Shown here in pieces: positions 9,138 through 28,581 of a stretch of DNA of 64,000 bases. This DNA comes from Candidatus Woesearchaeota archaeon (GTDB lineage Archaea; Nanobdellota; Nanobdellia; Woesearchaeales; JACPJR01): the NCBI GenBank assembly GCA_016187565.1, contig JACPJR010000010.1:132596-196595 (forward strand), read 5' to 3'. The translations under genes and the position numbers were made by a program. How positions within the stretch are numbered: the stretch's first letter is position 1; every line of letters begins with the position of its first letter. Below the pieces are notes generated by a model. That model worked only from the letters and a program-made list of their open reading frames with translations, was not told the origin of the DNA and made no database searches.

Positions 9138-9656
9138 ATGAAAACCATGCAAAAAAAAAGCCAAGCCCATACCCAAATTATGATGTATATCTTTGCTATG
9201 ATTATTGTTAGTGCTGTACTTCTTTATGGGTATCAAGCAGTTAAGGGTTTTATGAGTCAAACAAAAACAGTCGCCTTAATTCAATTTAAAAATGATTTTG
9301 CTGCAACCGTAGAAACCAGTACGGGTTATGGAAGCGTAACTAAAAAAGTACTCGATGTTCCTGCTGAATATACCAAAATCTGTTTTGTTGATCGTGAACA
9401 TTCATCACAGGCTGAGCAAACAGATCTCTGTGATTCATTGGACATTACTGCGTATGAGCCGCTTATCTGTGATGCATGGAAATCAAGTGATCCAGCCAAT
9501 GTATTTTTTGTTGATAAACTCATGAAAGGATCATTTAATGTCAATTATCTCCGTGTTCCTGATCCAGGCTGGCTGTGCCTTACGCCGGTTAATGGAAGGA
9601 TTACGCTACGATTAGAAGGACAAGGCAGCTATACGCTTGTCAGTTCTTGGCAATAA
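9138..9656 (+). CDS. Pilin-like protein with N-terminal membrane helix
   Basis: This 172-residue protein has a short basic N-terminus (KKSQAHTQ), one hydrophobic helix at about residues 14-32 and a small Cys-containing ectodomain. The architecture is that of archaeal type IV pilin-like subunits, but I do not recognise a named family. It starts 40 nt after the giant surface protein and is followed by three more proteins of the same plan, so they are probably co-transcribed and co-assembled. The N-terminus resembles that of the fourth gene of this run (KKSLKAQIE). Function as a minor pilin or envelope subunit is inferred from architecture and context. Confidence 0.6.
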   Translation: MKTMQKKSQAHTQIMMYIFAMIIVSAVLLYGYQAVKGFMSQTKTVALIQFKNDFAATVETSTGYGSVTKKVLDVPAEYTKICFVDREHSSQAEQTDLCDSLDITAYEPLICDAWKSSDPANVFFVDKLMKGSFNVNYLRVPDPGWLCLTPVNGRITLRLEGQGSYTLVSSWQ

Positions 9657-9686
9657 GTTCTAATAATAGATGAAGCAATTAGACAA

Positions 9687-10742
9687 ATGAGTAAAAAAAA
9701 AAAGGGCGAAGAAATGCAATTCCATTGGATTTTTATCTTAATTATCGGAGCCATTATCCTTATCTTTTTCGTGAGTATTGTGCAAAAACAAAAATCCGTT
9801 AGTCAAACAACCATTGATGCGCAGATTAAAGTGGATCTGAGAACGATCTTGACCAATGCAATGGTTAGTGATGGAAAAACCTTTGCAATTACCGTTCATA
9901 ACACCCCTGTTACTTATTCCTGTGATGGTTTTAAGATTGGCAATCTAGAACCCTTTCGTCAAGGAGTGATGTTTGCTCCGAATCTCCTGCAATCACAGTC
10001 AGGAAAGATTATTGTGCTTACCAGAGATTGGGCAGTACCTTTTACCGCAACCAATTTTGTCTACCTAACCTCTCCGGAAATTCGTTATATCTTTGTAAGT
10101 GATGCAGAGGGTTATGGTCAAGCACTCTTTGCAAGTATGCCTGACAATATTACCAAGGAGATGAATACAACCAGTATTGGGCAGACCGCATCACAGAATC
10201 ATTATAAAGTAAGGTTTATCATGGTAAACAGGGATCCATCTTTGACGCTGTTTTCTACTGAACTCAAGGATATGCCTGATGAAGATGTTACTGCTCTTGT
10301 TATTACTCCTATAAACGGTGGTCTTGAGGGATATGGAACTATTGCGTTTTATCAAAAGCGTGGTGCACAGCTTATCTACCAGAGCAATGCTTCTTATCTT
10401 AGTAGAGAATCTCTGCTTGGTGCAATGTATAGTGATACTCCAGAGACCTACACCTGTGCTATGAATGAAGCCTTTGCTAAACTTTCCATTGTGACTACAG
10501 TACTGCAAAATAGAACAAGAACCTTGTGGGAATATCACCAAAGCATACTGACAAGCAATTGTGAGGATTATTATGAAGACGCCTGTTGCCGTGTTCCTTC
10601 AGGGTCGTCAATCCTTGAAGGAATGGCTACTGCTTCAGACAGATTTACGGCAGCAAACACAGAACGCCTTTATCAACTGTCCCAAGAATTAGAGACACAA
10701 AATAAATTGGTGCAGTTGTACTCTTGTCCTGTTATGTATTAG
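9687..10742 (+). CDS. Membrane-anchored ectodomain protein of the pilus-like cluster
   Basis: The 351-residue product begins with a lysine block (SKKKKGEE) and a single hydrophobic segment (about residues 13-30), followed by a roughly 320-residue extracellular part with scattered cysteines, including a C-C pair near the C-terminus. No enzymatic motif is visible. It lies 30 nt downstream of the first pilin-like gene, and the next gene begins about 30 nt after its stop. The lysine block plus single helix is the cluster's shared layout. It could be a major or minor structural subunit; I cannot assign a named family. Confidence 0.55.
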   Translation: MSKKKKGEEMQFHWIFILIIGAIILIFFVSIVQKQKSVSQTTIDAQIKVDLRTILTNAMVSDGKTFAITVHNTPVTYSCDGFKIGNLEPFRQGVMFAPNLLQSQSGKIIVLTRDWAVPFTATNFVYLTSPEIRYIFVSDAEGYGQALFASMPDNITKEMNTTSIGQTASQNHYKVRFIMVNRDPSLTLFSTELKDMPDEDVTALVITPINGGLEGYGTIAFYQKRGAQLIYQSNASYLSRESLLGAMYSDTPETYTCAMNEAFAKLSIVTTVLQNRTRTLWEYHQSILTSNCEDYYEDACCRVPSGSSILEGMATASDRFTAANTERLYQLSQELETQNKLVQLYSCPVMY

Positions 10743-10771
10743 TACACAATGTAAGATTACTTTACGGTGCA

Positions 10772-11263
10772 ATGATGATTTTCAATCCCAAAAAATCTCA
10801 AGTTAAAATTGGTGAAACTGTTGCTGTTTTGTTTATTTTCTTTATCTTGCTGCTCTTTGGACTTATCTTTTATTCAAAGATTTTTACAACGAAGACACAG
10901 ACACAGATGCATGAGAACTTCCAGCAGCGTGCTGTTGAGATAAGCCAAATTGCTTCTTATCTTCCTGAATTACGTTGTAGTACGACAAACATTCCTACCT
11001 TAGACTGTATTGATATACTCAAACTTCAAGCGTCTGATGCTATCATGGAGGAAAATAGGCTGCGGTATTATGATCAGTTTTTCTATAGTACGATCTCTGT
11101 TGAAGAAATATTTCCTTCTACCGGGCAGGTATGGGTACTTTACAATACCTCGTACAATGGATCGACGATTGTTACCCGAGTTCCTGTCTCACTACTAGAC
11201 GATTCAGTGCATCCCCAGCGTTATAGTTTAGGCATCCTTGTCGTGGAGGTTTATCAGCGATGA
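10772..11263 (+). CDS. Short membrane-anchored protein of the pilus-like cluster
   Basis: I place the start at the ATG pair 10772/10775 because an earlier in-frame start would overlap the upstream gene and prepend residues unlike other members. The product (about 163 residues) starts MMIFNPKKSQVKIGE and continues into a hydrophobic helix (about residues 17-38) and a small ectodomain. The KKSQ tetrad before the helix is shared with the first pilin-like gene. Its stop codon overlaps the start of the next gene (ATGA), a sign of translational coupling. Function is unknown beyond the pilin-like plan. Confidence 0.5.
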   Translation: MMIFNPKKSQVKIGETVAVLFIFFILLLFGLIFYSKIFTTKTQTQMHENFQQRAVEISQIASYLPELRCSTTNIPTLDCIDILKLQASDAIMEENRLRYYDQFFYSTISVEEIFPSTGQVWVLYNTSYNGSTIVTRVPVSLLDDSVHPQRYSLGILVVEVYQR

Positions 11264-11934
11264 GCACAACTTCATCCAAAAAAAAGGTTAGCAGCATCAG
11301 GGCAAGGTCCCATCACATTATTGAATCCAACCGACAAGGGGGATGTCCCTTACGGGGAATGTCGGCAAATGCAGATAACATCAAGCACTTTGAAGCTGCT
11401 AATCTGAGCGGAGCGAATTTTTGGATGAAGTTGACGAGAAAAAAATCTTTGAAAGCACAGATTGAAATTCTCGGACTCTTGATGGTTATGGTTTTGCTTT
11501 CGTTAGGGATGTTATTTGTCCTTCGATTTGTGCTTCTTAAACCCGCTGAAAATGTCCAAGCAACCTTTGCTGATGTCGAGATGGCACAGAACATGATTAC
11601 CTCATTGTTGAAAGTAACGACGACGTGTAAAGACTTGAGTATGACTGAGTTGCTTGAAGATTGTGCCCGCTATGAAAGCATTGATTGCGGTGATGGAAAC
11701 ACCTCGTGCAGTTATCTCAACAAAACCCTTCCTCTTATATTCAACCAGACCTTTGGCATATGGCATCGAAGGTATACCTTTAATGCAACCATTGCTACCA
11801 TTCCTCCGCAGAGTGTTCTTAGTGTCGATGGCAACTGTTCTGCTGCTGCATTAAAAGAAAAACCCGGATTACAACCCCTTCCTCTTGCTTCTGGTGCCCC
11901 GTTAATGATCCGCTTGGATTTATGTAAGCCTTAA
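11260..11934 (+). CDS. Pilin-like protein whose 5' end carries an in-frame mobile element
   Basis: The core protein is a membrane helix (IEILGLLMVMVLLSLGML) with a small Cys-containing ectodomain. The first 57 or so codons are not original. A 165-bp terminal-inverted-repeat element (11268-11432) sits directly after the start ATG. Element plus duplicated target adds 58 codons without a stop. Joining the flanks restores MS-(T/K)-KSLKAQIEILG, a normal cluster N-terminus that begins at the ATGA overlap with the previous gene. Today translation may read through the element, or may begin at ATG 11425, which the element's right end supplies (MKLTRKKSLKAQ). Which start is used cannot be decided from sequence. 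Confidence 0.6.
   Translation: MSTTSSKKKVSSIRARSHHIIESNRQGGCPLRGMSANADNIKHFEAANLSGANFWMKLTRKKSLKAQIEILGLLMVMVLLSLGMLFVLRFVLLKPAENVQATFADVEMAQNMITSLLKVTTTCKDLSMTELLEDCARYESIDCGDGNTSCSYLNKTLPLIFNQTFGIWHRRYTFNATIATIPPQSVLSVDGNCSAAALKEKPGLQPLPLASGAPLMIRLDLCKP
11268..11432. mobile_element. MITE-like element, copy A (165 bp)
   Basis: The ends form a perfect 16-bp inverted repeat when one flanking base is counted (CAACTTCATCCAAAAA at 11267-11282, its complement at 11418-11433). A second internal inverted pair contains TTAGCAGC (11286-11299 and 11391-11404). Copy B at 23442-23608 shares the TCATCCA-type ends, the AGCAGC/AGTAGC block and the stretch CTGAGCGG. The flanks GATGAGCAC and GACGAGAAA match at 6 of 9 positions and look like a decayed 9-bp target duplication. 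No transposase is present, so it is non-autonomous. Confidence 0.75.
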
Positions 11935-13086: not shown

Positions 13087-13146
13087 CCCTCCTCCTTAAG
13101 GGGTTATTCGATTCAGAAAACGCTAACAAGCGAAGAGGTGGTATTC

Positions 13147-13410
13147 ATGCACAAAAGAGCTCAGAGTCTTTCATTAAATGTTATCATTGTTGCAGCCTTA
13201 GCATTACTTGTTCTTGTGGTCTTAGCGCTTATTTTTACGGGTAAGATTAATATCTGGGGAAGCCAGGTTAAGGACTGTGTTCAGAATGGCGGCGAGTGTC
13301 AAACAGGTCCTGATTGTGAAGAGGGTTTCCGTAACTACAATGCATGGAAATGTGCTGATGAGAGCGGTGAACCAACCGATGAAGTCTGTTGTTTGGAATT
13401 GAGTGTTTAG
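13147..13410 (+). CDS. Class III signal peptide mini-protein with 6-Cys domain (1)
   Basis: An 87-residue protein: KRAQSLSLN, a hydrophobic helix (about residues 10-30), then a domain with the Cys spacing C-x4-GG-x-C ... C ... C ... CC. The (A/G)Q-S/G-LSLN-x-I-I-I/V-A block is the archaeal class III signal peptide, which is processed by the type IV prepilin-like peptidase. I chose ATG 13147 over GTG 13138 because AGAGGTG is correctly spaced for it. Three close paralogues follow within 1.7 kb. The Cys pattern suggests a small disulfide-knotted head at the tip of a pilin-like shaft. Confidence 0.7.
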   Translation: MHKRAQSLSLNVIIVAALALLVLVVLALIFTGKINIWGSQVKDCVQNGGECQTGPDCEEGFRNYNAWKCADESGEPTDEVCCLELSV

Positions 13411-13412
13411 GT

Positions 13413-13661
13413 ATGACAAAGGCTCAAGGATTAAGCCTTAATGTGATTGTTATTGCAGCTCTTGGCATTATTGTGTTGGTTATTTTAGTGGTTATTTTTT
13501 CCGGAAAAGTCGATCTCTTCGGGAAAAGTTTAACCAACTGTCAGGAAAAAGGTGGTACGTGCAGTGGCTCCTGTGGACCTGATCAGTATGTCATCAAAAA
13601 CACGAACTGCAATAATGATAAGGATCCGACAAACGATCTGTGTTGCATGCCCCTAGCATGA
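13413..13661 (+). CDS. Class III signal peptide mini-protein with 6-Cys domain (2)
   Basis: An 82-residue paralogue. MTKAQGLSLNVIVIAALG is the class III signal and start of the helix. After it come FSGKVDLFGKSL and a knot-like domain with CQEKGGTC and a terminal CCMPLA. The start at 13413 lies 3 nt after the previous stop, and an upstream in-frame ATG would overlap that gene. Signal and helix are conserved with the neighbours while the Cys domain differs in loop sequence. This is a tandem family with a constant anchor and variable head. Confidence 0.7.
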   Translation: MTKAQGLSLNVIVIAALGIIVLVILVVIFSGKVDLFGKSLTNCQEKGGTCSGSCGPDQYVIKNTNCNNDKDPTNDLCCMPLA

Positions 13662-13770: not shown

Positions 13771-14046
13771 ATGTACAGAAACAAGAAACAAACCAAAGCC
13801 CAGGGATTAAGTTTAAACACCATTATCATAGCTGTTTTGGTCCTTATTGTTCTCATTGTGTTGGTTCTTATCTTTACTGGAAAGATCAGATTGTTTAGTG
13901 CTGATCTTGAAAATTGTGTTTCAAAAGGTGGACAGTGTCAGGCAAATGCATGTCCTTCTGGTTATGCAAAGATTCCCAATAGTGACTGTGAGAAAACACC
14001 AGATGGAAGTCCAACCGGAAATGTCTGTTGCATTCAGATATTGTAA
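13771..14046 (+). CDS. Class III signal peptide mini-protein with 6-Cys domain (3)
   Basis: A 91-residue paralogue with KAQGLSLNTIIIAVLVLIV as class III signal and membrane helix, then TGKIRLFSADL and a domain CVSKGGQC-x4-C-PSGY ... C ... CC. Compared with its neighbours, the helix and the LF/FG hinge are conserved and the loops differ. It is the last gene before a 440-bp hairpin-dense non-coding block. Function as a pilin-like surface subunit is inferred from the signal type and the array context. Confidence 0.7.
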   Translation: MYRNKKQTKAQGLSLNTIIIAVLVLIVLIVLVLIFTGKIRLFSADLENCVSKGGQCQANACPSGYAKIPNSDCEKTPDGSPTGNVCCIQIL

Positions 14047-14443: not shown

Positions 14444-14487
14444 TTAAAGCGGTTGTGAGCTTTTGTAGAATAGTTTGTGGTGGAACG

Positions 14488-14769
14488 ATGAGATCAGGCC
14501 AGGGACTTTCTCTGACAACAGTTGTTATTGCCGTCCTTGTTATTATTGTACTTATTGTCCTTCTGGTAATCTTTACTACACAGTTGAGGATCTTTGGTAA
14601 GGATATCAACGAGAGTGGGACTTCTTACGAACGAATATGTAAAATGCCAGGTCTTGAACGGGAGTGCTATGAATCTAAGGGTACCTGTGAGGCCGAACAA
14701 GGTGTTTTCATTCCCAAAAAAGACAACCAGCCATGGAAAGATTGCCCTGGAGAATGCTGTGAGTTGTGA
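14488..14769 (+). CDS. Class III signal peptide mini-protein with Cys-rich head (4)
   Basis: A 93-residue paralogue starting MRSGQGLSLTTVVIAVLVII, a class III signal and helix, then a longer, more charged head with CEAEQG and a final CPGECCEL. ATG 14488 is preceded by GGTGG at the right spacing, so the longer upstream reading is rejected. It differs from the first three in lacking the double Gly between the first cysteines (CYESKGTC). The hairpin-dense block separates it from them. It converges with the deacylase gene, 17 nt away. Confidence 0.65.
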   Translation: MRSGQGLSLTTVVIAVLVIIVLIVLLVIFTTQLRIFGKDINESGTSYERICKMPGLERECYESKGTCEAEQGVFIPKKDNQPWKDCPGECCEL

Positions 14770-15951: not shown

Positions 15952-16737
15952 ATGAATACCCGAGGCATTGCAGCAAAGGAACTTGCAGTTATTCTCTTTG
16001 TTGTAGCTGCATTAGTCATGGTTGTTTTTCCTTTAACAACGAAGCTCTATGCAAGCCTTACTCGAGGGAGTGCTATTGAATCCTGCCGTTCTGGATTGCT
16101 TGCAGATCGCTATGCACCAACAGGAATCAAGGGATTTCCTGAACAATGCATGACCTACCAGAAGATATTTTCTTACAAAGAGGTTTTAGAAGATAACGGG
16201 GATGATGAGCAGCTTGATCAAACCGTTATCTTTAATGAATTTGCAAACAGTGCACGCTTGACCTGGTATCAGGCCATAGAAGGCATTGCTCATAGTACCG
16301 AAAAAAGTCTTTTCGGAAAAGATGTTGCCTGTTTTATCGGCGGAGAAATTGATTTCGAAAGAAAAGTTCAGGTTGATTTTGCTCAAGAAAAGGTCTGTGG
16401 ATTATTTGATACGCTGTCAAACGAGAAGATGCAGTCGTGGAAAGCAGGAAATTTTGATGGGACAAACAAAACGTATTTTGCCTATCTCTATGGAAGTCAG
16501 ACGACATTAGATGCTTACAGAAGCGATGTTGAGGATCGTTTTGGTAAAGATACTGCTTTAGTTCCAGGAAACGATTGCATTAGTCCCTCCCAGAAATATT
16601 ATGTGGTGTATTATGGAACCTCTATCAGCCTCACGTGGTTTGCACAGGTTGGTACAGCTGCAATGGTTGTGTTTGTTGATGCCGAGCATCTTGGCGATTT
16701 GGGATGTCAATTAGTCCATCACAATCCACAAAAATAA
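15952..16737 (+). CDS. Membrane-anchored ectodomain protein of the island
   Basis: A 261-residue protein beginning MNTRGIAAKELAVILFVVAA, a pilin-like N-terminus with a single helix (about residues 10-30). The extracellular domain carries paired cysteines near residues 45, 66, 127, 149 and 210. No enzyme motif is seen. It follows the micro-protein by 33 nt and precedes a similar gene by 27 nt, so the three probably form an operon. Structural or scaffold function is inferred. Confidence 0.55.
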   Translation: MNTRGIAAKELAVILFVVAALVMVVFPLTTKLYASLTRGSAIESCRSGLLADRYAPTGIKGFPEQCMTYQKIFSYKEVLEDNGDDEQLDQTVIFNEFANSARLTWYQAIEGIAHSTEKSLFGKDVACFIGGEIDFERKVQVDFAQEKVCGLFDTLSNEKMQSWKAGNFDGTNKTYFAYLYGSQTTLDAYRSDVEDRFGKDTALVPGNDCISPSQKYYVVYYGTSISLTWFAQVGTAAMVVFVDAEHLGDLGCQLVHHNPQK

Positions 16738-16764
16738 AATCATCGTACTCTCAAACGAGAATAT

Positions 16765-17706
16765 ATGATACGTCAAAAAAGAGGAAAAAGAGGACAGGCA
16801 GATCATTTTGGTGAGTATGTTATTGTTGGACTAGTTATTACGTTGGTTATCTTATTTATCATGCTAAAATTAGAGTTAAGCGTTGGAAATATTCTTCGAG
16901 GAACTGTGCCTGAGCAGATCTGCCGTGATAGTGTGCTGGCTCATGCAGGACTACATATCAAGGGTGTTGATGTTTCCTCTGATATTAAATGTCCAACGCA
17001 GCACATCAAGAATAGAGCTCGTGAGAATGATGATGCCTTGCATGAGATTGCCGAAGCTATGCGAAAATGTAAGTGGCAGTTTGATGGTGATGGGCTGAAC
17101 CTTTTTAAAAATAAAGGTGTCTTCGATGCTCTGCTGGACAAGGAAACCAATTACTGTGTGGTTTGTCATCGCCTAGAGTTTACCAATGAACTTACCTTTA
17201 CCCCTGAAGAGATTCAGAACTATCTGATGGATCATACCTTTCAGCGTCTTCTTGATAACCAGAGTCTGGAAGAGATATCCTATTATGAATACCTCACCGG
17301 AATTTCTCCTGAAGAAAATCGTGCAGCATTACAAGCACAAGCTCCGTCTTTTCCTGACGAGGTAATCACCACAAAAGACACTGATTTAGCAACCATCTTT
17401 ATGTACAACAAAGGCGGTGAGACAACCTCAGCATTTTGGGAATGGACTGGTGGTGGCTCGGGTGCACTTGGTGCTGTTGGTTTAGGCATTGCCTTGTTTA
17501 GTGGCGTAGGTACTATTCCTGTTCTCCTGATCATTGGCGCTGGTGCAGGTACAGGCGCGTTGGCGGGGGGTGCAGTTGCCCAAAAGACAGGAACCATTGA
17601 ACAGACAGCCAATGTTGGTTATATGTTGGTACCGTATACCACAGAATACTTGAGTAGTTTAGAGTGTGATTATCTCCCGGCAAAACAGACCATACTTTCA
17701 CCTTAA
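16765..17706 (+). CDS. Membrane-anchored protein with C-terminal glycine-rich hydrophobic hairpin
   Basis: A 313-residue protein with an N-terminal basic patch (RQKRGKRGQADHFGEY), a helix at about residues 18-37 and a Cys-containing ectodomain. Near residues 230-275 is a Gly/Ala-rich hydrophobic double stretch (GGGSGALGAVGLGIALF and IIGAGAGTGALAGGAVA) of the type found in membrane-inserting or channel-lining hairpins. The N-terminal RGQA-type motif resembles a class III signal. It is co-directional with its neighbours. A pore-like or membrane-active role is possible but only suggested by composition. Confidence 0.5.
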   Translation: MIRQKRGKRGQADHFGEYVIVGLVITLVILFIMLKLELSVGNILRGTVPEQICRDSVLAHAGLHIKGVDVSSDIKCPTQHIKNRARENDDALHEIAEAMRKCKWQFDGDGLNLFKNKGVFDALLDKETNYCVVCHRLEFTNELTFTPEEIQNYLMDHTFQRLLDNQSLEEISYYEYLTGISPEENRAALQAQAPSFPDEVITTKDTDLATIFMYNKGGETTSAFWEWTGGGSGALGAVGLGIALFSGVGTIPVLLIIGAGAGTGALAGGAVAQKTGTIEQTANVGYMLVPYTTEYLSSLECDYLPAKQTILSP

Positions 17707-18029: not shown

Positions 18030-18902
18030 ATGAAACCCTTTAATGTAGCGAATAAAAAGGCGGAGATGCAATGGGAAATTACCGTGTGGATCCTCGTGCT
18101 TGTGGTTTTTGGTATTGGTCTCTTTATCCCGTTCAAAGGAAAAAGCATGGCACAGGGTTTGAGTGATACGCTCTGTAAAGTCCCCCTAGCCTTTGGATTG
18201 TCGTTGTGCGAAGCTCCTGAACATGCCTTTACCTTACATGTTGAACAAAACGATTATCTGACAACAACCATTGCTTGGGAGATGGAAGAAAAGAATAAGG
18301 ACTTTCAGAAGTTTCTTGTTTTCCTTTTCAAAGAGGGTGAAAAAGAACCAGCGTCACCACAGTATACCATCCCAGCGTCCCCTACCGAAGATAAATATAC
18401 GGTTGAAATCAAAAACCTCCTTGAGGGACAAAACTATAATCTCATTGTCTTTGCCCAAGATAAAGAAGGAAAGAACCGTGAAGAAGTTAAGGCAATATTT
18501 TCCTTTACCCTTGCTCCTACGGCTTCATCCTTTGCTGACGTGCTTCAGTATAAGATTGACGTGATGCACTTTGAAATGAATAACGAATTGATGCGTGATG
18601 GTGTTACCAAATCCTTTTGTGGGCATCTTGTTGATAGGGGTAATGAAGGCGGGCTTACCTTAGAGTGTACTGATGTACTTGCCAAGGCGCATGAGGATGG
18701 TAATTGTGACGACCAAGAACTTGAGGGATTTCTCTTGCCGTCAATAAGCCCAGCCCCGTTTACCTGTACCTCTGCTGACACCCAGGAATCATTTTTATTG
18801 CTCAGTACTCTTGCCGATCCAGCAAGCGTTTCTTCATGGCAGGATGATATCGCAGATGTGGTAATGCCTGCTGAACTGGTGGTGAACTTCCGTGAACAAT
18901 AA
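18030..18902 (+). CDS. Membrane-anchored fibronectin-like domain protein
   Basis: A 290-residue protein. After NKKAEMQWEITVWILVLVV, which is signal plus helix, comes a Cys pair and a fibronectin type III-like domain (about residues 70-165: hydrophobic strand pattern, LLEGQNYNLIVFAQD, ending FSFTLAP). A C-terminal Cys-bearing domain follows. The stop overlaps the start of the next gene (GTG 18892), so the two are translationally linked. It is probably an extracellular binding or scaffold protein of the pilus-like structure. Confidence 0.55.
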   Translation: MKPFNVANKKAEMQWEITVWILVLVVFGIGLFIPFKGKSMAQGLSDTLCKVPLAFGLSLCEAPEHAFTLHVEQNDYLTTTIAWEMEEKNKDFQKFLVFLFKEGEKEPASPQYTIPASPTEDKYTVEIKNLLEGQNYNLIVFAQDKEGKNREEVKAIFSFTLAPTASSFADVLQYKIDVMHFEMNNELMRDGVTKSFCGHLVDRGNEGGLTLECTDVLAKAHEDGNCDDQELEGFLLPSISPAPFTCTSADTQESFLLLSTLADPASVSSWQDDIADVVMPAELVVNFREQ

Positions 18903-19251
18903 ACAGCAGAGACAAGGCCAGGGTTTACCCATCAATTATGTGGTCATGGCTGCTCTTGCGCTTATTGCACTGATTATCATTGTCATGCTTATGACTGGCA
19001 AAATACGCTTCTTTAACAAGAATGTTGAGGACTGCGAAACAAAGGGTGGGGAATGTGTTGCTCAGGGATCCTGTTCGGGTTTTGGTCAGGTCGATTTAAC
19101 CTGTCCTAAGGATCGGGTTTGTTGCACAATTACCTGTAAAGCTCTTAGAGGAACGTGTCAGTCATCATGCGATCCAAAAACAGAAACAGAGGTTCCTTTT
19201 GTTGATTGCGATGAAAAAAAAGTATGCTGTACAAAGCGAGAAACAGGGTGA
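18892..19251 (+). CDS. Class III signal peptide protein with two Cys-rich modules (5)
   Basis: GTG start overlapping the upstream gene; 119 residues. QGQGLPINYVVMAALALIAL is a class III signal variant with P for S. Two Cys modules follow, CETKGGEC ... CC and CKALRGTC ... CC, so it looks like a mini-protein with a duplicated head. TGKIRFFNKN between helix and head matches the hinge of the 13-14 kb paralogues. It extends that family to a second place in the island. Confidence 0.65.
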   Translation: MNNKQQRQGQGLPINYVVMAALALIALIIIVMLMTGKIRFFNKNVEDCETKGGECVAQGSCSGFGQVDLTCPKDRVCCTITCKALRGTCQSSCDPKTETEVPFVDCDEKKVCCTKRETG

Positions 19252-19626: not shown

Positions 19627-20832
19627 ATGCGTCCCAGAGAAAATCGCCAGTTACGCTGGCAGTATACTCGAAAAGCTTCAGTAGAGTTTCCGACCTGGAT
19701 GGTGGTTAGTCTTGTTCTCTCAGCTATCTTTATTTTGGTTCTTTTTGGTTTTGCTCAGGATCTCTATGCAAGCGTTATCAAGCGGCCTGATGAAAGCGTT
19801 ACCAGCTTTACCACCTTAACTGCAGAGGTCCAAGACTTACTTGAAGATAAAAAGGATTTTGCAGCAGTTGAGCAGTTTCTCTTTACTCTTGATGACCCTT
19901 ATTTTGTCATTGGGTTCGATACAACATGGGAGCCAAAAAGTGAATTTGGAACAGGTGCTATTGCTAATTGTGGAAATGTTCATCTGGATGTTATTCAAAA
20001 ACCATCTCTCTGTAAAGGATCTGCATGTCTGTGTGTCTTTCAGAGTTGGGATAAACCCCAATGTACTCTCTTTGCGGGAGATATTACTTTCATGAGGCCA
20101 CGATCTGTTGATATGGCCGTAGCAGTTGGTGAATTCGAAGCTGAAAAACAACGACGTACACGGTCTGATTCTCATACCATTGTTACCATGTATCCGCCGG
20201 AAACAGAACCACAAGGTATACGTTATGGTTATTTAGTGTACGGGGATTGTGAGACGTGGAAGACAAGCGCCATGTACCTTGAGAAGTATGTTAAGGCTGA
20301 TAAGACGTATGTTTTTATTGCAGAAAAGCCATTTTTAGTAGATCAAGACCAAGAGTTTGATCCACAGCAGCGCTATGAACAGTTACGCCAACTTGTTCCT
20401 CCTCTTTGTTCTGACTATTCAGCTGAGCAGTGTAAGCAACTAAAGCCGGGAACCGAGGTAAGTGTTGAAGCAACGACGATTATTGATGGCAGAGCATGTA
20501 GCACCCGGAAAGCTAACTGTGTTTATCAGCCAAATGATGCCTGTGCTTTAGCGTGTATTTGGCCGTCCTGTCCAGCAAATGAACCGATTAGTACGCCGTG
20601 TACCTGTAACGCCAATCTTATTGAAAAGGGCTATTGTTGCCTGAATAAGGAGACTTCGACTTACAACGTAGAGGCTCGACCATGCCATTGTAAAGAAGTT
20701 TCTCGTTGTCAGGATTATACTGACAGCGAGGGTTTAGATTGTACCCATGATACCTGCTATATTGCTCCACTTACCGGATGTATCTGGGACATATCTACGT
20801 CACGTTGCAAGGAAAAAGCTCCTTTAGATTAG
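19627..20832 (+). CDS. Membrane-anchored protein with Cys-rich C-terminus
   Basis: A 401-residue protein with a basic N-terminus, a helix at about residues 22-45, a mixed domain to about residue 270 and a C-terminal region very rich in cysteine (CALACIWPSCPAN, CTCNANL, GYCCLN, CHCKEVSRC). It is the last gene of this run before the AAA protein. The Cys-rich end resembles disulfide-stabilised stalk modules found in the M23 protein of the same island. No catalytic motif is evident. Confidence 0.55.
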   Translation: MRPRENRQLRWQYTRKASVEFPTWMVVSLVLSAIFILVLFGFAQDLYASVIKRPDESVTSFTTLTAEVQDLLEDKKDFAAVEQFLFTLDDPYFVIGFDTTWEPKSEFGTGAIANCGNVHLDVIQKPSLCKGSACLCVFQSWDKPQCTLFAGDITFMRPRSVDMAVAVGEFEAEKQRRTRSDSHTIVTMYPPETEPQGIRYGYLVYGDCETWKTSAMYLEKYVKADKTYVFIAEKPFLVDQDQEFDPQQRYEQLRQLVPPLCSDYSAEQCKQLKPGTEVSVEATTIIDGRACSTRKANCVYQPNDACALACIWPSCPANEPISTPCTCNANLIEKGYCCLNKETSTYNVEARPCHCKEVSRCQDYTDSEGLDCTHDTCYIAPLTGCIWDISTSRCKEKAPLD

Positions 20833-20898: not shown

Positions 20899-22296
20899 AT
20901 GTCCAATGAGGAAGTAGGGAAATTAGTGGATGTGCCTTTAGCAGCAACTGCAGAAGAGGTAGGAGAGCCGTCGCAGAAGGAAACAATACAGCGACTAGAA
21001 GAGCATATTCGCTTTTTGGAAAAGGATCATGACAGTGAGATAGACTGCCTCTGGAACGAAATTCGAGCTTTGCAGAATCATGGTGCTGATACCGCAAGAG
21101 TAGTATCGGTTTCTAAATCCACGGTAGAGATTGAGGACGTACAGGGCAACAAATATACAGCCAAGTATGATCCGGATATAAGACGTCAGCTTACTCCAGG
21201 CAGAGAGGTCTATACAAACGCCCAAAGAACGTACATTCAAGGAGTAAAAAGCCATGTGTTAACGGGTCCTGTTGCCCAAGTTACTCGACTCTTAGATCAG
21301 GGAAGAGTAATGGTTGGTAGGGATGGCCACGAAGCGGTCATTTTTGGTGGTAAAGGATTGCGGGTAGGAGATGAGGTCATCTTTGATGATGAAGAAAGAC
21401 ATATTCTCGATGTAATTAGTCGTGCATCGCTTCCTTTAGTGGAATTCCCGAATGTAACCTGGGATGCAGTCGGTGGTCTTGATCACGTTGTTAGCGAAGT
21501 GCAAGAGGTAGTGGAGTTACCTTATTTGTATCCTGATGTTTTTCGTCGTTATCCACTCGTGGGAGGTACAGAAAGAAAGTTGAGGACATTCTTTGGTCTT
21601 GCTCGAGAGGTGGCAGGAGACGGTGGTCCATTGGTCCTCTACGTTGATGAAATTGACTCGATCGGAAGAGAGCGAGGACAGGGAGAGAATTCACGAGTTT
21701 ATGACACTGCTACTAATCAATTATTAGTAGAATTAGATGGCATGAATGAACTCGAGAATGTGGTGTGTATGGCCGCAACAAATCGAGAGAAACTGCTTGA
21801 TAGTGCGCTTATTCGACGATGGGAACATAAGATCTATGTTCCTCGTCCGAGTCAGGAAGGAACAGAGTCTATTTTTTCCATTTACTTAAAACAAGTAGCC
21901 TTGGATTCTCGAGTGGCAGACTTTGATGGATCCTCTCTAAAGGATATGGCAAAAAGGGTTACGGATTCGTTGTTTTCTCATTCCCGTCCCATAGCCAGAA
22001 TCGTGTATTGGGAAAGAGCATATGACCTTGTTGATTTTTCTGATCTCATGAGTGGGAAACTTATCAGAGATACGGTATATCGAGCGGCGTTATTAGCAAT
22101 AGAGCGAGAGATTAAGGGTGGAGCTCGGGGTGTGACCTCTGACGATCTAGAACGGGCTGTCCAGACCGTCTATGAAGAACATCGACACTTTCCTAACCTT
22201 GTCACTGATTATGACAAACGAAATATTGCGGGTAGTCATTACGAGAACATTCAACGAGTAGAGTCTATTACTTCTTCGGGCATTATCTTACGTTGA
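20899..22296 (+). CDS. ARC/Mpa-like AAA protein lacking the Walker A region
   Basis: 465 residues with the order of the proteasomal ATPase ARC/Mpa: coiled coil (about 25-60), two OB-like domains (about 65-175), AAA domain, then an Mpa-type C-terminal helical part (SDLMSGKLIRDTVYRA). VTWDAVGGLD ... VVELPYLYPDVFRRYPL runs directly into VGGTERKLRTFF at residues 220/221 (nucleotide 21559). The roughly 50 residues holding the P-loop and pore loop 1 are absent without a frame break. Walker B (LVLYVDEIDSIG) and sensor 1 (AATNRE) remain. The arginine-finger loop is shortened (LIRRWEHK). The C-terminus lacks HbYX. It is probably a non-ATPase scaffold or a degenerate paralogue; an assembly deletion is possible. 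Confidence 0.75.
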   Translation: MSNEEVGKLVDVPLAATAEEVGEPSQKETIQRLEEHIRFLEKDHDSEIDCLWNEIRALQNHGADTARVVSVSKSTVEIEDVQGNKYTAKYDPDIRRQLTPGREVYTNAQRTYIQGVKSHVLTGPVAQVTRLLDQGRVMVGRDGHEAVIFGGKGLRVGDEVIFDDEERHILDVISRASLPLVEFPNVTWDAVGGLDHVVSEVQEVVELPYLYPDVFRRYPLVGGTERKLRTFFGLAREVAGDGGPLVLYVDEIDSIGRERGQGENSRVYDTATNQLLVELDGMNELENVVCMAATNREKLLDSALIRRWEHKIYVPRPSQEGTESIFSIYLKQVALDSRVADFDGSSLKDMAKRVTDSLFSHSRPIARIVYWERAYDLVDFSDLMSGKLIRDTVYRAALLAIEREIKGGARGVTSDDLERAVQTVYEEHRHFPNLVTDYDKRNIAGSHYENIQRVESITSSGIILR

Positions 22297-22388
22297 ATGT
22301 GAGTATTCCATCCAGTCTTTGACTGGTGGGTTCTCTTGAAACGTCGCACGTCACCAAACCTTTAAAGTCTACTGGTTATTTCTCTTTA

Positions 22389-23345
22389 ATGATGACAAAC
22401 ATCGATGATGCTATTGCCCGTGCCACGGCCTTCGTGCTCGATAGCCGTCACCCTGAAAATGGAATGTGGTATAATTTCCTAACTCGGCATCATGGAGAGA
22501 GTGCAGATTGGGTCAGTTCATTTGTCGGGCTGAATATGCTTCGCGCCGGCACCCCTCGAGACGAATTGTTGAGAACTGCGCAGAGCGTCCTGAAACGCCA
22601 GCGCGAGGGTGGGGGCTTTAGTTATAATCACAAGATTGTTCCGGATGCCGACTCGACTGCCTTCGCAGTCCGTTTTCTTTCTTATTTCGGCTTTGAAGAC
22701 GAACTGGTGAATGCGCGCAGTTTCCTTGCCGCTCATCAGCATACGGACGGCAGTTTTGCGACGTATCGCGAAGAGGCCATCAGGCAGTACACGCGCATCC
22801 CTCTGGAGATGTCGGTCGCAGGATGGTGCGCAGGAACGACTGACGTGACCGCTTCTGCACTTCTAGCATTACCTACCAATATACGCGCAGTATGCTATCT
22901 GCTCAACTCTCAGCTTCCTGACGGGTCTTGGCGGGCTTACTGGTGGACGAGCGATGTCTACACGACGAAGCACGCGGCCGAAGCCCTTCGCCCGTTTGGT
23001 TTCGAGAAAGAAGTGGGTGCTGCTCAGCGATGGCTGGCTGACGACGCCAACGTCCCCTCTCTTCCATTCTATCTCGCACTCTCGATCCAGGCACTGGCAG
23101 AAGACGAAGCATCCAGGCCCATCATAGATGCTCGGGTCGAGAGACTCCTCGCTATGCAGCGAACTGATGACTGGAGCTGGAACACGCAACCCATCCTGCG
23201 TTTCCCATCACCGATGAACGCCGAACCGTGGACTTACCCTTCGTGCTGGCGAGAAGACGCAAGTGACCAAAACAGGATTTTTACCACAGCGACTTGCCTT
23301 AAAGCGCTCAGCGATTATCGAGCAGCAACGGGAAAGCAGTTTTAG
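22389..23345 (+). CDS. Terpene cyclase/prenyltransferase-like alpha-toroid protein
   Basis: About 318 residues from ATG 22389 (a GTG at 22326 is the alternative). Repeated QxxDGSW-like segments (HQHTDGSF, QLPDGSWRAYWW) and GGGFSYN identify the alpha-alpha toroid of squalene-hopene cyclases and prenyltransferases. DADSTAF stands where class II cyclases have D-x-D-D. It has half the length of a full cyclase. GC content and codon choice (CGC, GAC, CTC) are clearly higher than in the flanking genes. This suggests recent transfer, probably bacterial. Substrate unknown. Confidence 0.6.
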   Translation: MMTNIDDAIARATAFVLDSRHPENGMWYNFLTRHHGESADWVSSFVGLNMLRAGTPRDELLRTAQSVLKRQREGGGFSYNHKIVPDADSTAFAVRFLSYFGFEDELVNARSFLAAHQHTDGSFATYREEAIRQYTRIPLEMSVAGWCAGTTDVTASALLALPTNIRAVCYLLNSQLPDGSWRAYWWTSDVYTTKHAAEALRPFGFEKEVGAAQRWLADDANVPSLPFYLALSIQALAEDEASRPIIDARVERLLAMQRTDDWSWNTQPILRFPSPMNAEPWTYPSCWREDASDQNRIFTTATCLKALSDYRAATGKQF

Positions 23346-23653: not shown

Positions 23654-24739
23654 ATGGTGGCAAAAAAAAGAGGGATATCCTGTTTGTACCATACATTGTA
23701 CCATGCAAAGAGAGGTATGGTTGTTGCAGAAGTGATTATTGATCTTATTCTTCTGGTCAGTACATTTCTCGTTCTTCTTGCCTATGCCAAATCCAGTGCT
23801 GAAGGTACCTTGGTTGAGAAGCTCTATGTTACCCGAGATCAAGCACTCTTAATCGATGCGATCTATGCAGCTCCAGGAAACATTGATTATAGTTATACGC
23901 TTCCAGATACTTTTTTGAATATGTCTCAATTCAACTATTTGTATTATACCTACACGGTTGCCATGACTGAGAAAAATCAGCCTAGCCTTACAGCCTATCC
24001 TCACTATGCTGATCTTTTCCTTGCAAATAATATTTCTTTTCTCACGACGGATATCAAGACACCTATCACCATGCTTCAGTTCAGTAAGATTGGTGATGAG
24101 ATAACCGTTGGCACACTTCCTGAGAAAAACTTACTCAGACAGGATTGTTCAGTATTTGCAGAGCTTCAAACACAGGCAGATGTGGCTACGCGTTCATTTG
24201 TCGTCGATCCAAGTCATGGTGATCTCATTGAGGGATCAAGAGATAGGGGCTATGTCAATGCTCAAGATGCTCTGTTCGCCGAAGCAGAGGTAGCCTACAG
24301 TGTGGCATCATATTTTGCGACAAGGTTGTCAGCCAAGCTCACCAGGGAAGAACAACCTGATGCTGTTGTTGATCGACTGTTGCCGATTGGCCAAGATACT
24401 GACTTTGTTCTAAGTATCCACACGGGAAGTACACTTCCTGAGGAAAACCCAGTTATTGCGTTTATTCCTCCAGACTCCCCTTACAGTCAAAAATTCGCCT
24501 GTATTGCAATAAACACCCTGCTTGAAAAATATCCAGACATTACGCAAGTTGCTATCCTTGAACGTGATGATTCTCTCCTTACGAAGAACCAAGGTTTTGG
24601 AAAACAGCATGTTGCGGTTCAATTTGAATTAGGAAATATCCAGATTCCTCGAGAGGAGAATGTCATGCTGGACAAACACCGTGAGCTTGCACAGGCATTG
24701 CATGAGGCCATCAACACCTATTACGGGGTGGCATCATGA
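23654..24739 (+). CDS. Membrane-anchored Amidase_3-like (N-acetylmuramoyl-L-alanine amidase fold) protein
   Basis: 361 residues: N-terminal helix (about 23-45), a linker domain, then an Amidase_3-like domain (about 180-355). VVDPSHGD holds the first zinc His (188), AEAEVAYSVA a Glu (210/212), VLSIHTGS the second His (256) and AVQFELGN the catalytic Glu (325). These are the positions of His, Glu, His, Glu in DPGHGG ... SIHAN ... VELGF of bacterial amidases. LTREE and DRLL match the usual TR-x-D and R segments. Archaea usually lack murein, so the target may be bacterial prey or host walls, a different glycopeptide, or none. It overlaps the next gene by 4 nt. Confidence 0.7.
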   Translation: MVAKKRGISCLYHTLYHAKRGMVVAEVIIDLILLVSTFLVLLAYAKSSAEGTLVEKLYVTRDQALLIDAIYAAPGNIDYSYTLPDTFLNMSQFNYLYYTYTVAMTEKNQPSLTAYPHYADLFLANNISFLTTDIKTPITMLQFSKIGDEITVGTLPEKNLLRQDCSVFAELQTQADVATRSFVVDPSHGDLIEGSRDRGYVNAQDALFAEAEVAYSVASYFATRLSAKLTREEQPDAVVDRLLPIGQDTDFVLSIHTGSTLPEENPVIAFIPPDSPYSQKFACIAINTLLEKYPDITQVAILERDDSLLTKNQGFGKQHVAVQFELGNIQIPREENVMLDKHRELAQALHEAINTYYGVAS

Positions 24740-25332
24740 GCGTATCTCTTCCTGGATGGTTACGATGGGCTAAACAACAGAGAGCCCTGAAAAACCGTCA
24801 AGGTATAGGCCCGATTACTACGGTGATGTGGATTCCGAAAATACTATTTCTTGTTATTGTGTTTATCGTGGCCATCATTCTTATCCGAGAATTTCTCGTA
24901 ACCGGTATTGATGTGTTCGAGCCAGAAGCAGCAACGTTTATCAACAGTTTTCTGTACTCCCCTCATGGACTTTCTTACCGTGATCCTGGCACCGGAAGAG
25001 TGTATCCGGGGATCATTGATATCCAGAGATTCAATGCAGAAAATGTTGCGCATTCTCTGGATAGAGCATTCAGTTTTGGCAAGGAGAATAACCACGTCGC
25101 AGCACAATTTCGTCTCAAGAGTGTTTCTGGTACTGAGGAAACAATCGTTTATTACAATCAAGCTAAGTACGAGTATTGGAGTACGCTGGCAAAAGCCTTT
25201 GGCAATTCAGCCTATGTTGGTCCTGGTGGAGCACGAGAAAAAAAGCAACAATTGTATGTGCTGGCCAGAACAAAAGACGGAACTCTTGAACAAAAAATCC
25301 TTGAAATCAGTGTGGTCATTCCCAATGATTAA
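24736..25332 (+). CDS. Membrane-anchored protein between the amidase-like and M23 genes
   Basis: 198 residues with a basic N-terminus, a helix at about 32-52 and an ectodomain of about 145 residues without cysteine. The 4-nt overlap with the amidase-like gene and the 8-nt overlap with the next gene show tight coupling. The helix is preceded by GIGPITTVMWIPK, another pilin-like junction. No named family. It is probably a partner or anchor subunit for the hydrolase-like proteins. Confidence 0.55.
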   Translation: MSVSLPGWLRWAKQQRALKNRQGIGPITTVMWIPKILFLVIVFIVAIILIREFLVTGIDVFEPEAATFINSFLYSPHGLSYRDPGTGRVYPGIIDIQRFNAENVAHSLDRAFSFGKENNHVAAQFRLKSVSGTEETIVYYNQAKYEYWSTLAKAFGNSAYVGPGGAREKKQQLYVLARTKDGTLEQKILEISVVIPND

Positions 25333-25972
25333 GAACCAGTATTATCTGAACAGAGAAATTCGAGAAACAACACCCAGAAAAGCAAGAAAAGGACTAGGAA
25401 CGGTTACTACTGCTTTTTTTTCTTATACGGCTTTTGCTCTGTTGGTCATTATTTTCTTTTTTATTATAGCACTACAGACTGATACCATTGCAGAACAGAA
25501 AAAATCATATATTAATACCAGCAATGTTCTTGGCTCAGGCTTAGAACTCCATTGGGATCTTACCCTGCTGAATTATCTCCGTACTCCAGTAACTGTGGAT
25601 GGTGAGGCCATGACCATGGCAGATCTTATTGTTTTGTGGTACCATAATCCTGAGAAATACGAAGCCTTGCTGACCAGTCAATCTACTGAGGTGTTGAACC
25701 AATGGACTTACCATTACATTGATCCCCAATTCAAAAACGAGCGTATCATGGCGTATGCTGTTTGGATATCTGAAGGGCCACCTGTTCGTGGCGAAATTCA
25801 GTCAATCCTCCTTCGTCTTCCATCTACTCAATATAAGGGTGAGCATTGTTTGATGAGGGGTAGTCTCTGTCAACAAGCAGGGGGAGCATATCTTCCAGGA
25901 AGTGAAACCAAAACCATCTATGTCAGCATTCTTGCCAGTCGTGCAGCCGCATCGACCGATGAAGACAAATAA
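25325..25972 (+). CDS. Membrane-anchored protein preceding the M23 gene
   Basis: I place the start at ATG 25325, overlapping the previous stop, since it gives a normal cluster N-terminus (KGLGTVTTAFFSYTAFAL followed by a helix at about residues 30-55). The product is 215 residues with a soluble ectodomain carrying one Cys pair (CLMRGSLC). It is translationally linked to both neighbours (15 nt to the M23 gene). It has the same plan as the preceding gene. Function unknown. Confidence 0.55.
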   Translation: MIKNQYYLNREIRETTPRKARKGLGTVTTAFFSYTAFALLVIIFFFIIALQTDTIAEQKKSYINTSNVLGSGLELHWDLTLLNYLRTPVTVDGEAMTMADLIVLWYHNPEKYEALLTSQSTEVLNQWTYHYIDPQFKNERIMAYAVWISEGPPVRGEIQSILLRLPSTQYKGEHCLMRGSLCQQAGGAYLPGSETKTIYVSILASRAAASTDEDK

Positions 25973-25986
25973 CACTGAGAAAAACC

Positions 25987-28581
25987 ATGAGAATCCATAA
26001 CCAGCATACTCTGGGAGAATATTCCCTGAATAAGGCTAAGAAAGCGAGTATTCCTCTGTATCATCCCATCTTGGTTATTCTCTTTGCCGTTGTTATGATT
26101 ACCGCGCTGTTATGGTTTGCAAAATCGTATGGCCGGTTTGAAGACCGGTTTATTGGAGAAAAACAAGCTGAGGTATTTCAGACCTATCAGAAAGGAGAAC
26201 GTGCGTTGTTCTATCTTGATCAGGCTGCAAAACTAAGTGCCTATGACACCATACATACCTTAGCCCAGAAAGGAGGTTCTAACAAAGAAAGTCCTTGTGG
26301 TACGTATCAAGGCTATGCGCTGTGGAATAATAAAACCGAAGAGTGCTACCCAGCAGAAGACCTTCCAGTAGTATTTATCGAGCTCTTCGGGCCATTGCTT
26401 AGTCAATATCTCGGTCTTTATCCTGAAGCAGATTTCTCCTTATCTGATGGAACCTTTAATTATCTTGATAACGAAATTGTTGGCGTTGCAGGAAATGATC
26501 TGCTGTTTTTGACTGGAAGTCCAAGTTATGCAGGAAGCCTTGATATTTTTCCCTATGCCAATCCTGATACGGTAAGCTTCTCTAATGACTGGGGAAATTC
26601 GCGTAGTGGAGGGAAAAGAACGCATGAAGGAACCGATGTCATGCCAGAAAATCCAGCTGAACCTATTCTTGCTGTCCGTCCAGGAACGGTTGTTAAGGCA
26701 TGGTGCAATCCTTATGGAGGAAATCGTATGCTCATCCGTGATGTTGATGATCCGAATATAGAGTATTATTATGCGCATATGGGAACCTATGCACAAAATT
26801 GGCAGGCCGGTGATATTGTTGCCACGGGCCAGGTGTTGGGTGAGACCGGGGATAATATTGGTTGCTATAATGATTGTACGAGCAATGATGCCTGTAGATT
26901 ATCCTGTCCGGTAGTCGATGGTATCCATCTGTGTGGCTTGCCAGGAAAAACCATACCTCATCTTCATTTTGGTATTTATGTCAACAAGGAGGCAATGAAT
27001 CCCTATGACTCCTTACAAGCGGTAATCCAAAAAGAACCAGAACAAAATCCAAAGGGCGGTGGGGGTAGCTACACGGTCAAACCATCTTTTCGAATTGCTA
27101 CCCATTATGATCTCGTAGGGACCTATCAAACACTTGCCAGTCATGCACGGAATTTAATACAAAATTGTGCCAATGCCGCTGATCTTGATGAGTGTATCAC
27201 CCTGAGTTTACCGAGTCTTTCCCAGCAAGAATTTTCCTGGTCCTTGGGCTACTGCGAGCCAAGAACAGAAGAAGAAAAAGCCTGTCTCAAGGATCCTTAT
27301 ACTGTTCCCTTCTTTGATGCTGAAGGCGATTTTACCAATTGTGGTCGTTGTCCACAGAAAACCCCACAGATCTGTCAAGATTATGCCACGGTTGACTATT
27401 GTGTCCGAGATCCATGTACTTATGATTGTCTCTGGGATGGAACTCTTTGTCGTGAAAAAACCGAGGATGAAAAAACAAAAGGAGCAGAACAAAATGAAAA
27501 TAGTAGAGCCTTTTGCGTTCGCTCAAAACAGGGATTTATGACTCAGGAGGATTATCCGAAATCATTTGCTCTGTATCCAGTTCAGTATCGCTTTGCCCTA
27601 ACCTTTGTCGCACAGCCCCCTCCTCCAGTAGAAGATGTTACGGTATTTCCATTCCCCGGAAGTGAGGGCTCTTTAGTTGTTAAATTCAAGAAAAGTCCGT
27701 GGGAGAAGATACGTTCCTACAAGGTGTATTATGCCACCACAGACTTCAAAGATCAACCTATTGCTAATCATGTAATCCAAGATCCTCAGGATTCTGAGAA
27801 AACAATTCCTTCGCTTGAGTTATCTGCCACTGATTACCGAATGTTTTCAAGCATGAGCTTTGATTCCTGTACGTTGAAGCGGACAAGCCCTTTAGGACAG
27901 ATAGCCTGTCTCTTTGATGGGAATAAATTAGTACAAACGAATCAGCTTTATTTTCTTGAGACAACCCAGGAATTCTTTTATGTGCTTACAGGATTAGAAG
28001 AACAGAATTATTTTGTGGCAGTTACTGCTATTGGTGAAAATGGTGCTGAGATAAACAATCAGGATGAAGGTCAGCGTTTTATACGTACGCAAGGAGAACT
28101 TCCCTCTGCCCAACCCACTGACACGTTAAGTCCAGGGTTAACAACATTCCAGCTAGAGCCATTAACCATTCAAACGGTAAATGATCCTCTTCATTTTTCA
28201 TGGACAGAGGTTCTTGGAAATCTCGTTCCTACCTATCCCTTCCAGAATGACCTTGATGGATATATCCTTTATTATCAGTGTGACGAATTAGGACAGAATC
28301 CACGGTCATATCTTCTTGGGACAACAAGCCCGGTCTATCTTGAAAGATCGTTCTTTCCTGCCTGTCATCCTCCTGAAACGACTTCTGTCTATGCAGTTGC
28401 CATTGTTGCCCAGGATGATGCAACGAATGTTCTTCCTGTAGAACTAGGAAAGGCCCTTGGTTTAGGAATTTCAGCGCTAACCATTACTGATGAGGGTGCA
28501 ACGTATTCCTTTATGCTATCAACACCTTCGTTTATTCCTGAAGAGCCTATTGTCCCAGACGAGGGAGGTAGCGAGCAATGA
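25987..28581 (+). CDS. Membrane-anchored M23-family metallopeptidase with fibronectin-like repeats
   Basis: 864 residues: helix at about 26-46, an N-terminal domain, an M23 peptidase domain (about 185-345), a Cys-rich region (about 420-515) and two or three fibronectin-like beta domains. THEGTD supplies H213 and D217, YYYAH supplies H264, and HLHFG supplies H325/H327, the complete metal and catalytic set of M23 (LytM-type) endopeptidases. A Cys-rich insert (about 292-320) lies before HLHF. Bacterial members cut peptide cross-links of murein. In this archaeal island it may act on bacterial walls or on the organism's own surface proteins. It closes the amidase-to-M23 operon. Confidence 0.78.
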   Translation: MRIHNQHTLGEYSLNKAKKASIPLYHPILVILFAVVMITALLWFAKSYGRFEDRFIGEKQAEVFQTYQKGERALFYLDQAAKLSAYDTIHTLAQKGGSNKESPCGTYQGYALWNNKTEECYPAEDLPVVFIELFGPLLSQYLGLYPEADFSLSDGTFNYLDNEIVGVAGNDLLFLTGSPSYAGSLDIFPYANPDTVSFSNDWGNSRSGGKRTHEGTDVMPENPAEPILAVRPGTVVKAWCNPYGGNRMLIRDVDDPNIEYYYAHMGTYAQNWQAGDIVATGQVLGETGDNIGCYNDCTSNDACRLSCPVVDGIHLCGLPGKTIPHLHFGIYVNKEAMNPYDSLQAVIQKEPEQNPKGGGGSYTVKPSFRIATHYDLVGTYQTLASHARNLIQNCANAADLDECITLSLPSLSQQEFSWSLGYCEPRTEEEKACLKDPYTVPFFDAEGDFTNCGRCPQKTPQICQDYATVDYCVRDPCTYDCLWDGTLCREKTEDEKTKGAEQNENSRAFCVRSKQGFMTQEDYPKSFALYPVQYRFALTFVAQPPPPVEDVTVFPFPGSEGSLVVKFKKSPWEKIRSYKVYYATTDFKDQPIANHVIQDPQDSEKTIPSLELSATDYRMFSSMSFDSCTLKRTSPLGQIACLFDGNKLVQTNQLYFLETTQEFFYVLTGLEEQNYFVAVTAIGENGAEINNQDEGQRFIRTQGELPSAQPTDTLSPGLTTFQLEPLTIQTVNDPLHFSWTEVLGNLVPTYPFQNDLDGYILYYQCDELGQNPRSYLLGTTSPVYLERSFFPACHPPETTSVYAVAIVAQDDATNVLPVELGKALGLGISALTITDEGATYSFMLSTPSFIPEEPIVPDEGGSEQ

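Follow-up and report, generated by a model that had tools for sequence, protein, structure and literature searches.

A conserved surface-protein operon of Woesearchaeales carries exchangeable predicted murein hydrolases

RESULTS

A four-gene operon in an archaeal genome encodes two predicted peptidoglycan hydrolases.

We found that an operon for membrane-anchored proteins, conserved across the archaeal order Woesearchaeales, carries at one site any of about a dozen unrelated domains of the kinds that cut bacterial cell walls, although these archaea appear to make no such wall. The operon was first noticed in a 64,000-nucleotide stretch (the window) of a 1.94-Mb, 96.7% complete Woesearchaeota genome (GCA_016187565.1, contig JACPJR010000010.1). 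The original prediction held that two membrane-anchored proteins of a translationally linked operon, separated by two further membrane-anchored proteins and lying at the end of an island of pilin-like and adhesin proteins, carry Amidase_3-like and M23 domains with intact zinc and catalytic residues. That observation was confirmed. The four genes, here called P1 to P4, are translationally coupled, with short overlaps between P1 and P2 and between P2 and P3 and a 14-base gap before P4. The features of the operon and of the island upstream are listed in Table 1.

Table 1. Features of the P1-P4 operon and the surrounding island (positions within the 64,000-nucleotide window)
Feature	Coordinates	Strand	Description
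P1	23654-24739	+	Membrane-anchored protein; pilin-like N terminus (HAKRG|MVVAE), beta domain, C-terminal Amidase_3-like domain
Amidase_3-like domain of P1	24191-24721	+	Residues 180-356, with H188, E210, H256, E325
P2	24736-25332	+	Membrane-anchored scaffold protein of unknown fold; family in 75 of the sampled loci
P3	25325-25972	+	Membrane-anchored scaffold protein of unknown fold; ATG at 25325 (mechanical ORF starts earlier)
P4	25987-28581	+	Scaffold protein carrying the M23 cargo
P4 N-terminal scaffold	26014-26514	+	Residues 10-176; conserved in the order
M23 domain of P4	26617-27006	+	Residues 211-340; inserted at the cargo site
P4 C-terminal scaffold start	27070-27234	+	Residues 362-416; YTVKPSF motif
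m6	19627-20832	+	Protein with pilin-like N terminus; normally directly upstream of P1 in relatives
m4	18892-19251	+	Small pilin-like protein; further copies at 13138-13410, 13389-13661, 13771-14046, 14455-14769
Two m2-family proteins	15952-17706	+	Membrane proteins of the island (15952-16737, 16765-17706)
b9138-b9687-b10724-b11260	9138-11934	+	Four-gene block; upstream of the operon in relatives whose fetched locus reaches that far (L033, L035, L039, L047, L048)
Giant adhesin-like surface protein	2-9097	+	C-terminal part; begins upstream of the window; relative in L047

The M23 domain of P4 scored above the Pfam (PF01551) cut-off (47.8 bits against 28.7), and its HxxxD (H213, D217), H264, and HLH (H325, H327) residues are all present. 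In contrast, Pfam and NCBIfam searches of the window proteins alone left P1 unassigned. To address the identity of P1, we turned to its relatives and to structure prediction. Seventeen of 74 relatives hit Amidase_3 (PF01520) at E ≤ 0.001 (best E, 3.3e-14), one of them, from locus L045 (loci fetched from relatives are numbered with an L), at 40.5 bits against a cut-off of 27. An AlphaFold2 model of the window P1 (pLDDT 82) matched AmiC2 in the PDB (5emi; E, 1.4e-10; TM-score 0.75 by target length), followed by CwlD, LytH, and Rv3717. The predicted zinc ligands H188, E210, and H256 and the predicted catalytic E325 are in place. The original prediction had left the second ligand as either E210 or E212; alignment of the relatives showed that E210 is the conserved position.

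The gene order P1-P2-P3-P4 is conserved across the order.

A search with P1 found relatives in 95 of 371 sampled genomes of the phylum, and we retrieved 79 operon loci together with the stretch upstream of the window. Including the window, 68 loci held all four genes, and all 68 kept their order and strand, with median spacings of −8, −4, and −4 bp, so that the arrangement is not a chance pattern. A profile of the P4 N-terminal scaffold hit 234 of the 371 genomes and 178 of the 243 good ones, whereas searches for related loci with the P4 alignment and with P4 itself returned none. In most loci, the m6 family lies directly upstream of P1, with small pilin-like m4 proteins before it. Where the fetched stretch reached further, a four-gene block was found upstream, as in the window, and in L047 also a relative of the giant surface protein. 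Most of the closest named relatives of RadA, used to place the genome, are from Candidatus Woesearchaeota. The operon shares its contig with an archaeal RadA gene in the window and, by inference, very likely also in several relatives, which speaks against binning errors.

P4 has a site that holds different hydrolases.

P4 consists of an N-terminal scaffold of about 170 residues and a C-terminal scaffold that begins with a Y..KPSF motif. In most cargo-less relatives, the two are about 4 to 30 residues apart, whereas in many others, including the window, 180 to 650 residues holding the hydrolase lie between them. In some members (those with M74, and L046 and L058), the hydrolase is instead C-terminal. 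In a predicted structure of a cargo-less P4 (L039; pLDDT 85), the insertion point is a low-confidence loop between two strands.

Pfam searches of 79 P4 proteins gave SLT in 18, M23 in 13, M74 in 6, NlpC/P60 in 6, M15/VanY in 6, Amidase_2 in 3, Phage_lysozyme2 in 2, and CHAP in 2, with single matches to VgrG3-like_C, Amidase_3, Lysozyme_like, and Glucosaminidase. Other catalytic domains were PGA_cap, Metallophos, TPM, and C92, in one protein each. Together with scans of individual proteins, these counts gave at least 47 of 79 proteins with a murein hydrolase domain, and about 30 had no recognized hydrolase. Relatives of P1 added 17 Amidase_3, 1 Muramidase, 1 Amidase_2, and 1 M15_4 match. As a control, we searched 58 other proteins of the same islands (m6, large P2 and P3, and others) and found them nearly free of such domains, with one M23, one SLT, one C39_2, and one GDSL lipase. 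Searches over the phylum sample showed that SLT and M23 domains also occur in other proteins of these genomes, such that the operon is not their only carrier.

To ask whether cargo has been exchanged, we built a tree of the scaffold (P4 N-terminal part, P2, and P3; 75 loci, 514 columns). Well-supported neighbors differ in cargo, such as L066 (M23) and L067 (SLT). At least 23 changes are needed among the cargo-bearing loci, but the deep branches of the tree are too weak for cargo gains to be counted exactly.

Catalytic residues are mostly kept in M23 cargo but not in the P1 amidase.

Eleven of 13 M23 cargos keep the full set of catalytic and zinc residues, most well-aligned SLT cargos keep the catalytic Glu region, and M74 cargos keep their His/Asp motifs. 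In contrast, the amidase set of P1 is complete in only 10 of 43 aligned sequences, including the window, and so appears decayed in about three-quarters, although some of the 43 align poorly and may lack the domain. Among 11 loci with a short, cargo-less P4, five have an intact P1 amidase, compared with four of about 47 loci with cargo (Fisher P = 0.008; this comparison was chosen after seeing the data and ignores kinship). Strict complementarity of P1 amidase and P4 cargo therefore does not hold, and there is only a trend. Some operons (L040, L041, and L044) have neither cargo nor an intact amidase. Thus, a fixed amidase-M23 pair was rejected as the functional unit, since both domains are optional, and hydrolysis is not the constant function of the operon.

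Murein ligases are absent from this genome and nearly absent from the phylum sample.

The original prediction had named a constant association with a complete pseudomurein-like pathway as a finding that would speak against it, and no such association was found. The only Mur_ligase_M hit of the genome is FolC, and PF01225 (Mur_ligase) had no match in this genome and was present in 3 of 371 genomes. The controls did not show the sensitivity of PF01225 for pseudomurein ligases, and the PF08245 search, which does give hits in archaea, covered this genome only. With that limit, an own murein or pseudomurein substrate is unlikely.

Most P1 to P4 proteins carry a class III-like N-terminal motif.

A simple regular expression found [KR][KR][GASQ], a class III-like motif, near the first hydrophobic segment in 70 of 77 P1, 54 of 74 P2, 75 of 84 P3, 71 of 80 P4, 97 of 111 m4, and 78 of 89 m6 proteins with such a segment (73 to 91%), against 46 of 354 (13%) other ORFs with one, which include spurious ORFs. 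P1 has E at +5 of the putative cleavage site. The model of P1 starts with a 42-residue helix (residues 9 to 50) followed by strands, but its PDB matches are to the amidase part. The genome encodes two pilus ATPase and platform protein sets (T2SSE/T2SSF, on contigs C1 and C14) and a prepilin peptidase (Peptidase_A24, on contig C26) away from the operon, and no pilus ATPase gene was seen next to the operon in the window. Makarova et al. noted a nanoarchaeal pilus ATPase without identified cognate pilins (PMC4858521). The P4 scaffold model gave no match at E ≤ 0.001 in the PDB or BFVD, to pilins or to anything else, and weak gp25-like matches (E, 0.05 to 0.3) were judged to be chance, and so we do not claim that the P4 scaffold is a pilin.

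We also considered whether the operon might be a virus-derived lysis module. P1 to P3 had no PHROG hit, the P4 hits centered on its M23 domain, and, as noted above, the scaffold had no BFVD match. A viral origin was therefore not supported.

DISCUSSION

The interpretation offered in the original prediction is partly supported. Of its two alternatives, a contact-dependent machine for cell wall attack or host attachment used on bacteria is strengthened well beyond the window, because the same slot in relatives holds many unrelated murein hydrolase families and the phylum sample has almost no Mur ligases. Its other alternative, remodeling of an unknown surface polymer, loses support for the same reasons. 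However, the constant feature is not the amidase-M23 pair but the scaffold operon, in which each hydrolase is optional.

Taken together, these results most likely reflect a cell surface apparatus of Woesearchaeales, formed by P1 to P4 with the small pilin-like proteins and giant surface proteins upstream, in which the carriers P1 and P4 would present interchangeable murein hydrolases outside the cell. In this genome, an Amidase_3 domain would cut the glycan-peptide bond and an M23 domain the peptide cross-bridge of a bacterial partner's wall. We hold this reading with reasonable but far from complete confidence. Our analysis establishes the conserved operon, the cargo site, the range of murein hydrolase cargo, the intact catalytic residues, and the absence of Mur ligases from this genome, whereas it is by inference that the enzymes are active, that their target is bacterial murein, that the carriers are processed and assembled like type IV pilins and sit near a filament tip or contact site, and that the purpose is attachment, nutrient access, or predation on bacteria. 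A bolder reading, which is possible but which we put forward only tentatively, is that this is a previously undescribed, order-wide machine dedicated to breaching bacterial walls, a new membrane scaffold with a fixed cargo socket that has been reloaded repeatedly with unrelated murein hydrolases. This would imply that many Woesearchaeota live on, in, or off bacteria rather than archaea.

Other explanations seem less likely. The operon might be a general surface or pilus assembly whose murein hydrolase folds were co-opted to remodel a surface polymer (glycoprotein or pseudomurein-like material) of the archaeon itself or of a partner archaeon. The scaffold is indeed more widespread than the cargo, many amidase sites are decayed, and a few P4 proteins carry nonmurein domains (PGA_cap, Metallophos, and TPM), but many families whose known substrate is murein recur (SLT, M74, VanY, NlpC, Amidase_2, and lysozymes), co-option of all of them for another polymer is unlikely, and Mur ligases are scarce, as described above. 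We regard this as unlikely, and as about equally unlikely the possibility that the enzymes are displayed or shed to digest the wall debris of dead bacteria for sugars and amino acids without contact. Mixed glycosidase, amidase, and peptidase activities would suit full digestion, and small, biosynthetically limited genomes are typical of the group (PMC8204110), but membrane-anchored carriers in a conserved multigene surface operon with giant adhesin-like proteins suggest contact. Least likely is that the hydrolases open the wall for a DNA or protein exchange machine rather than for feeding or attack. Conjugation systems carry such enzymes (pCF10 PrgK; PMC11323569), and VgrG3-like and phage tail lysozyme domains occur among the cargo, but no conjugation ATPase, relaxase, or secretion channel was noticed in the operon, albeit without a systematic search for those families.

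With the hosts or partners of most DPANN archaea unknown, a conserved operon whose cargo is chosen again and again from murein hydrolases, in archaea that lack murein ligases almost throughout the sample, points to bacteria as partners for a large order of uncultured archaea and provides named proteins with which to test this. It would also be an archaeal example of a carrier with exchangeable enzyme cargo and a source of many natural murein-cutting domains.

Single SLT proteins and other hydrolases have been reported in these archaea before, but we found no description of this operon or of its exchangeable cargo in the open-access literature searched, which did not extend to subscription papers or preprints. 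Castelle et al. (PMC8204110) described large SLT domain proteins of Pacearchaeota and Woesearchaeota (fam00969, which may or may not overlap P4) and proposed that some of these archaea are episymbionts of bacteria, and Vigneron et al. (PMC9723730), with GH23 genes of Lake A Woesearchaeota, proposed predatory Woesearchaeota. These studies place lytic transglycosylase domains in the same archaea and had already proposed attachment to or predation on bacteria, but the proteins described were single proteins of up to 3,000 aa, and we found in them no account of an operon, other hydrolase classes, or exchangeable cargo. Peptidoglycan hydrolases have been found in nearly 5% of archaeal genomes, in archaea without murein and prominently in Nanoarchaeota, and archaea are reported to use them to kill bacteria, with a haloarchaeal M23-type enzyme as the focus of the killing tests (PMC12352652). 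Those are modular enzymes with wall-binding domains, whereas here the hydrolases are cargo of a conserved membrane-anchored operon of one order.

The modular type IV pilins of bacteria, such as PilB and PilC of Streptococcus sanguinis (PMC8179133), also comprise a carrier module with a class III-like N terminus that bears one of many grafted functional domains, presumed to be exposed at the filament tip. The 264 architectures counted there in bacteria have mainly binding or unknown domains and two predicted peptidase types, whereas nearly all of the recognized catalytic cargo here is murein hydrolase, which in many P4 proteins is inserted inside the scaffold rather than appended, and the P4 scaffold is not shown to have a pilin fold. 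Finally, the AmiC/CwlD-type Amidase_3 and LytM/M23 partners of bacterial division and sporulation place the same two enzyme folds side by side. In bacteria, they act on the cell's own murein, whereas here an own murein is unlikely and the pairing is not conserved.

Within the window, m6 and P1, the genes for the protein with a pilin-like N-terminus and the protein with an Amidase_3-like domain that are adjacent in most relatives, are separated by two genes. The first encodes an AAA+ protein resembling a proteasome-activating nucleotidase, which seems to lack the Walker A segment although Walker B is present, and the second encodes a squalene-cyclase-like toroid.

Locations of additional features (G, genome; C, contig; L, locus)
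Location	Feature
Window 20899-22296	AAA+ protein
Window 22326-23345	Squalene-cyclase-like toroid
L001 544-2124 (G000:C14:68406-68654)	Second M23 protein of this genome
L036 3753-5999 and 7275-9890	P4 and P1 of a related locus
G201:C5:194213-194584	SLT ORF next to L033 P4

We found a second M23 protein of this genome (526 aa) outside the operon, with, as judged by eye, a possible transglycosylase-like N-terminal half. At L036, P4 carries PGA_cap plus M74, while P1 (871 aa) carries an Amidase_3-like domain without its histidines, an apparent alpha/beta-hydrolase and an M15_4 peptidase. The ORF just downstream of L033 P4 (1206 aa) has an SLT domain, and genomes G117 and G102 also have M23 hits shortly after P4.

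Rare Mur ligase-family matches were seen in two related genomes, G330 (three, on C2 and C7) and G308 (C4). At L173 (JAFCCF010000002.1), an archaeal RadA lies on a contig labelled Aminicenantes bacterium, probably reflecting mis-binning in the public record. ORFs of 2,000-3,400 aa in related genomes (e.g., G073, G177 and G153) encode giant proteins with SLT domains, possibly fam00969 (PMC8204110).
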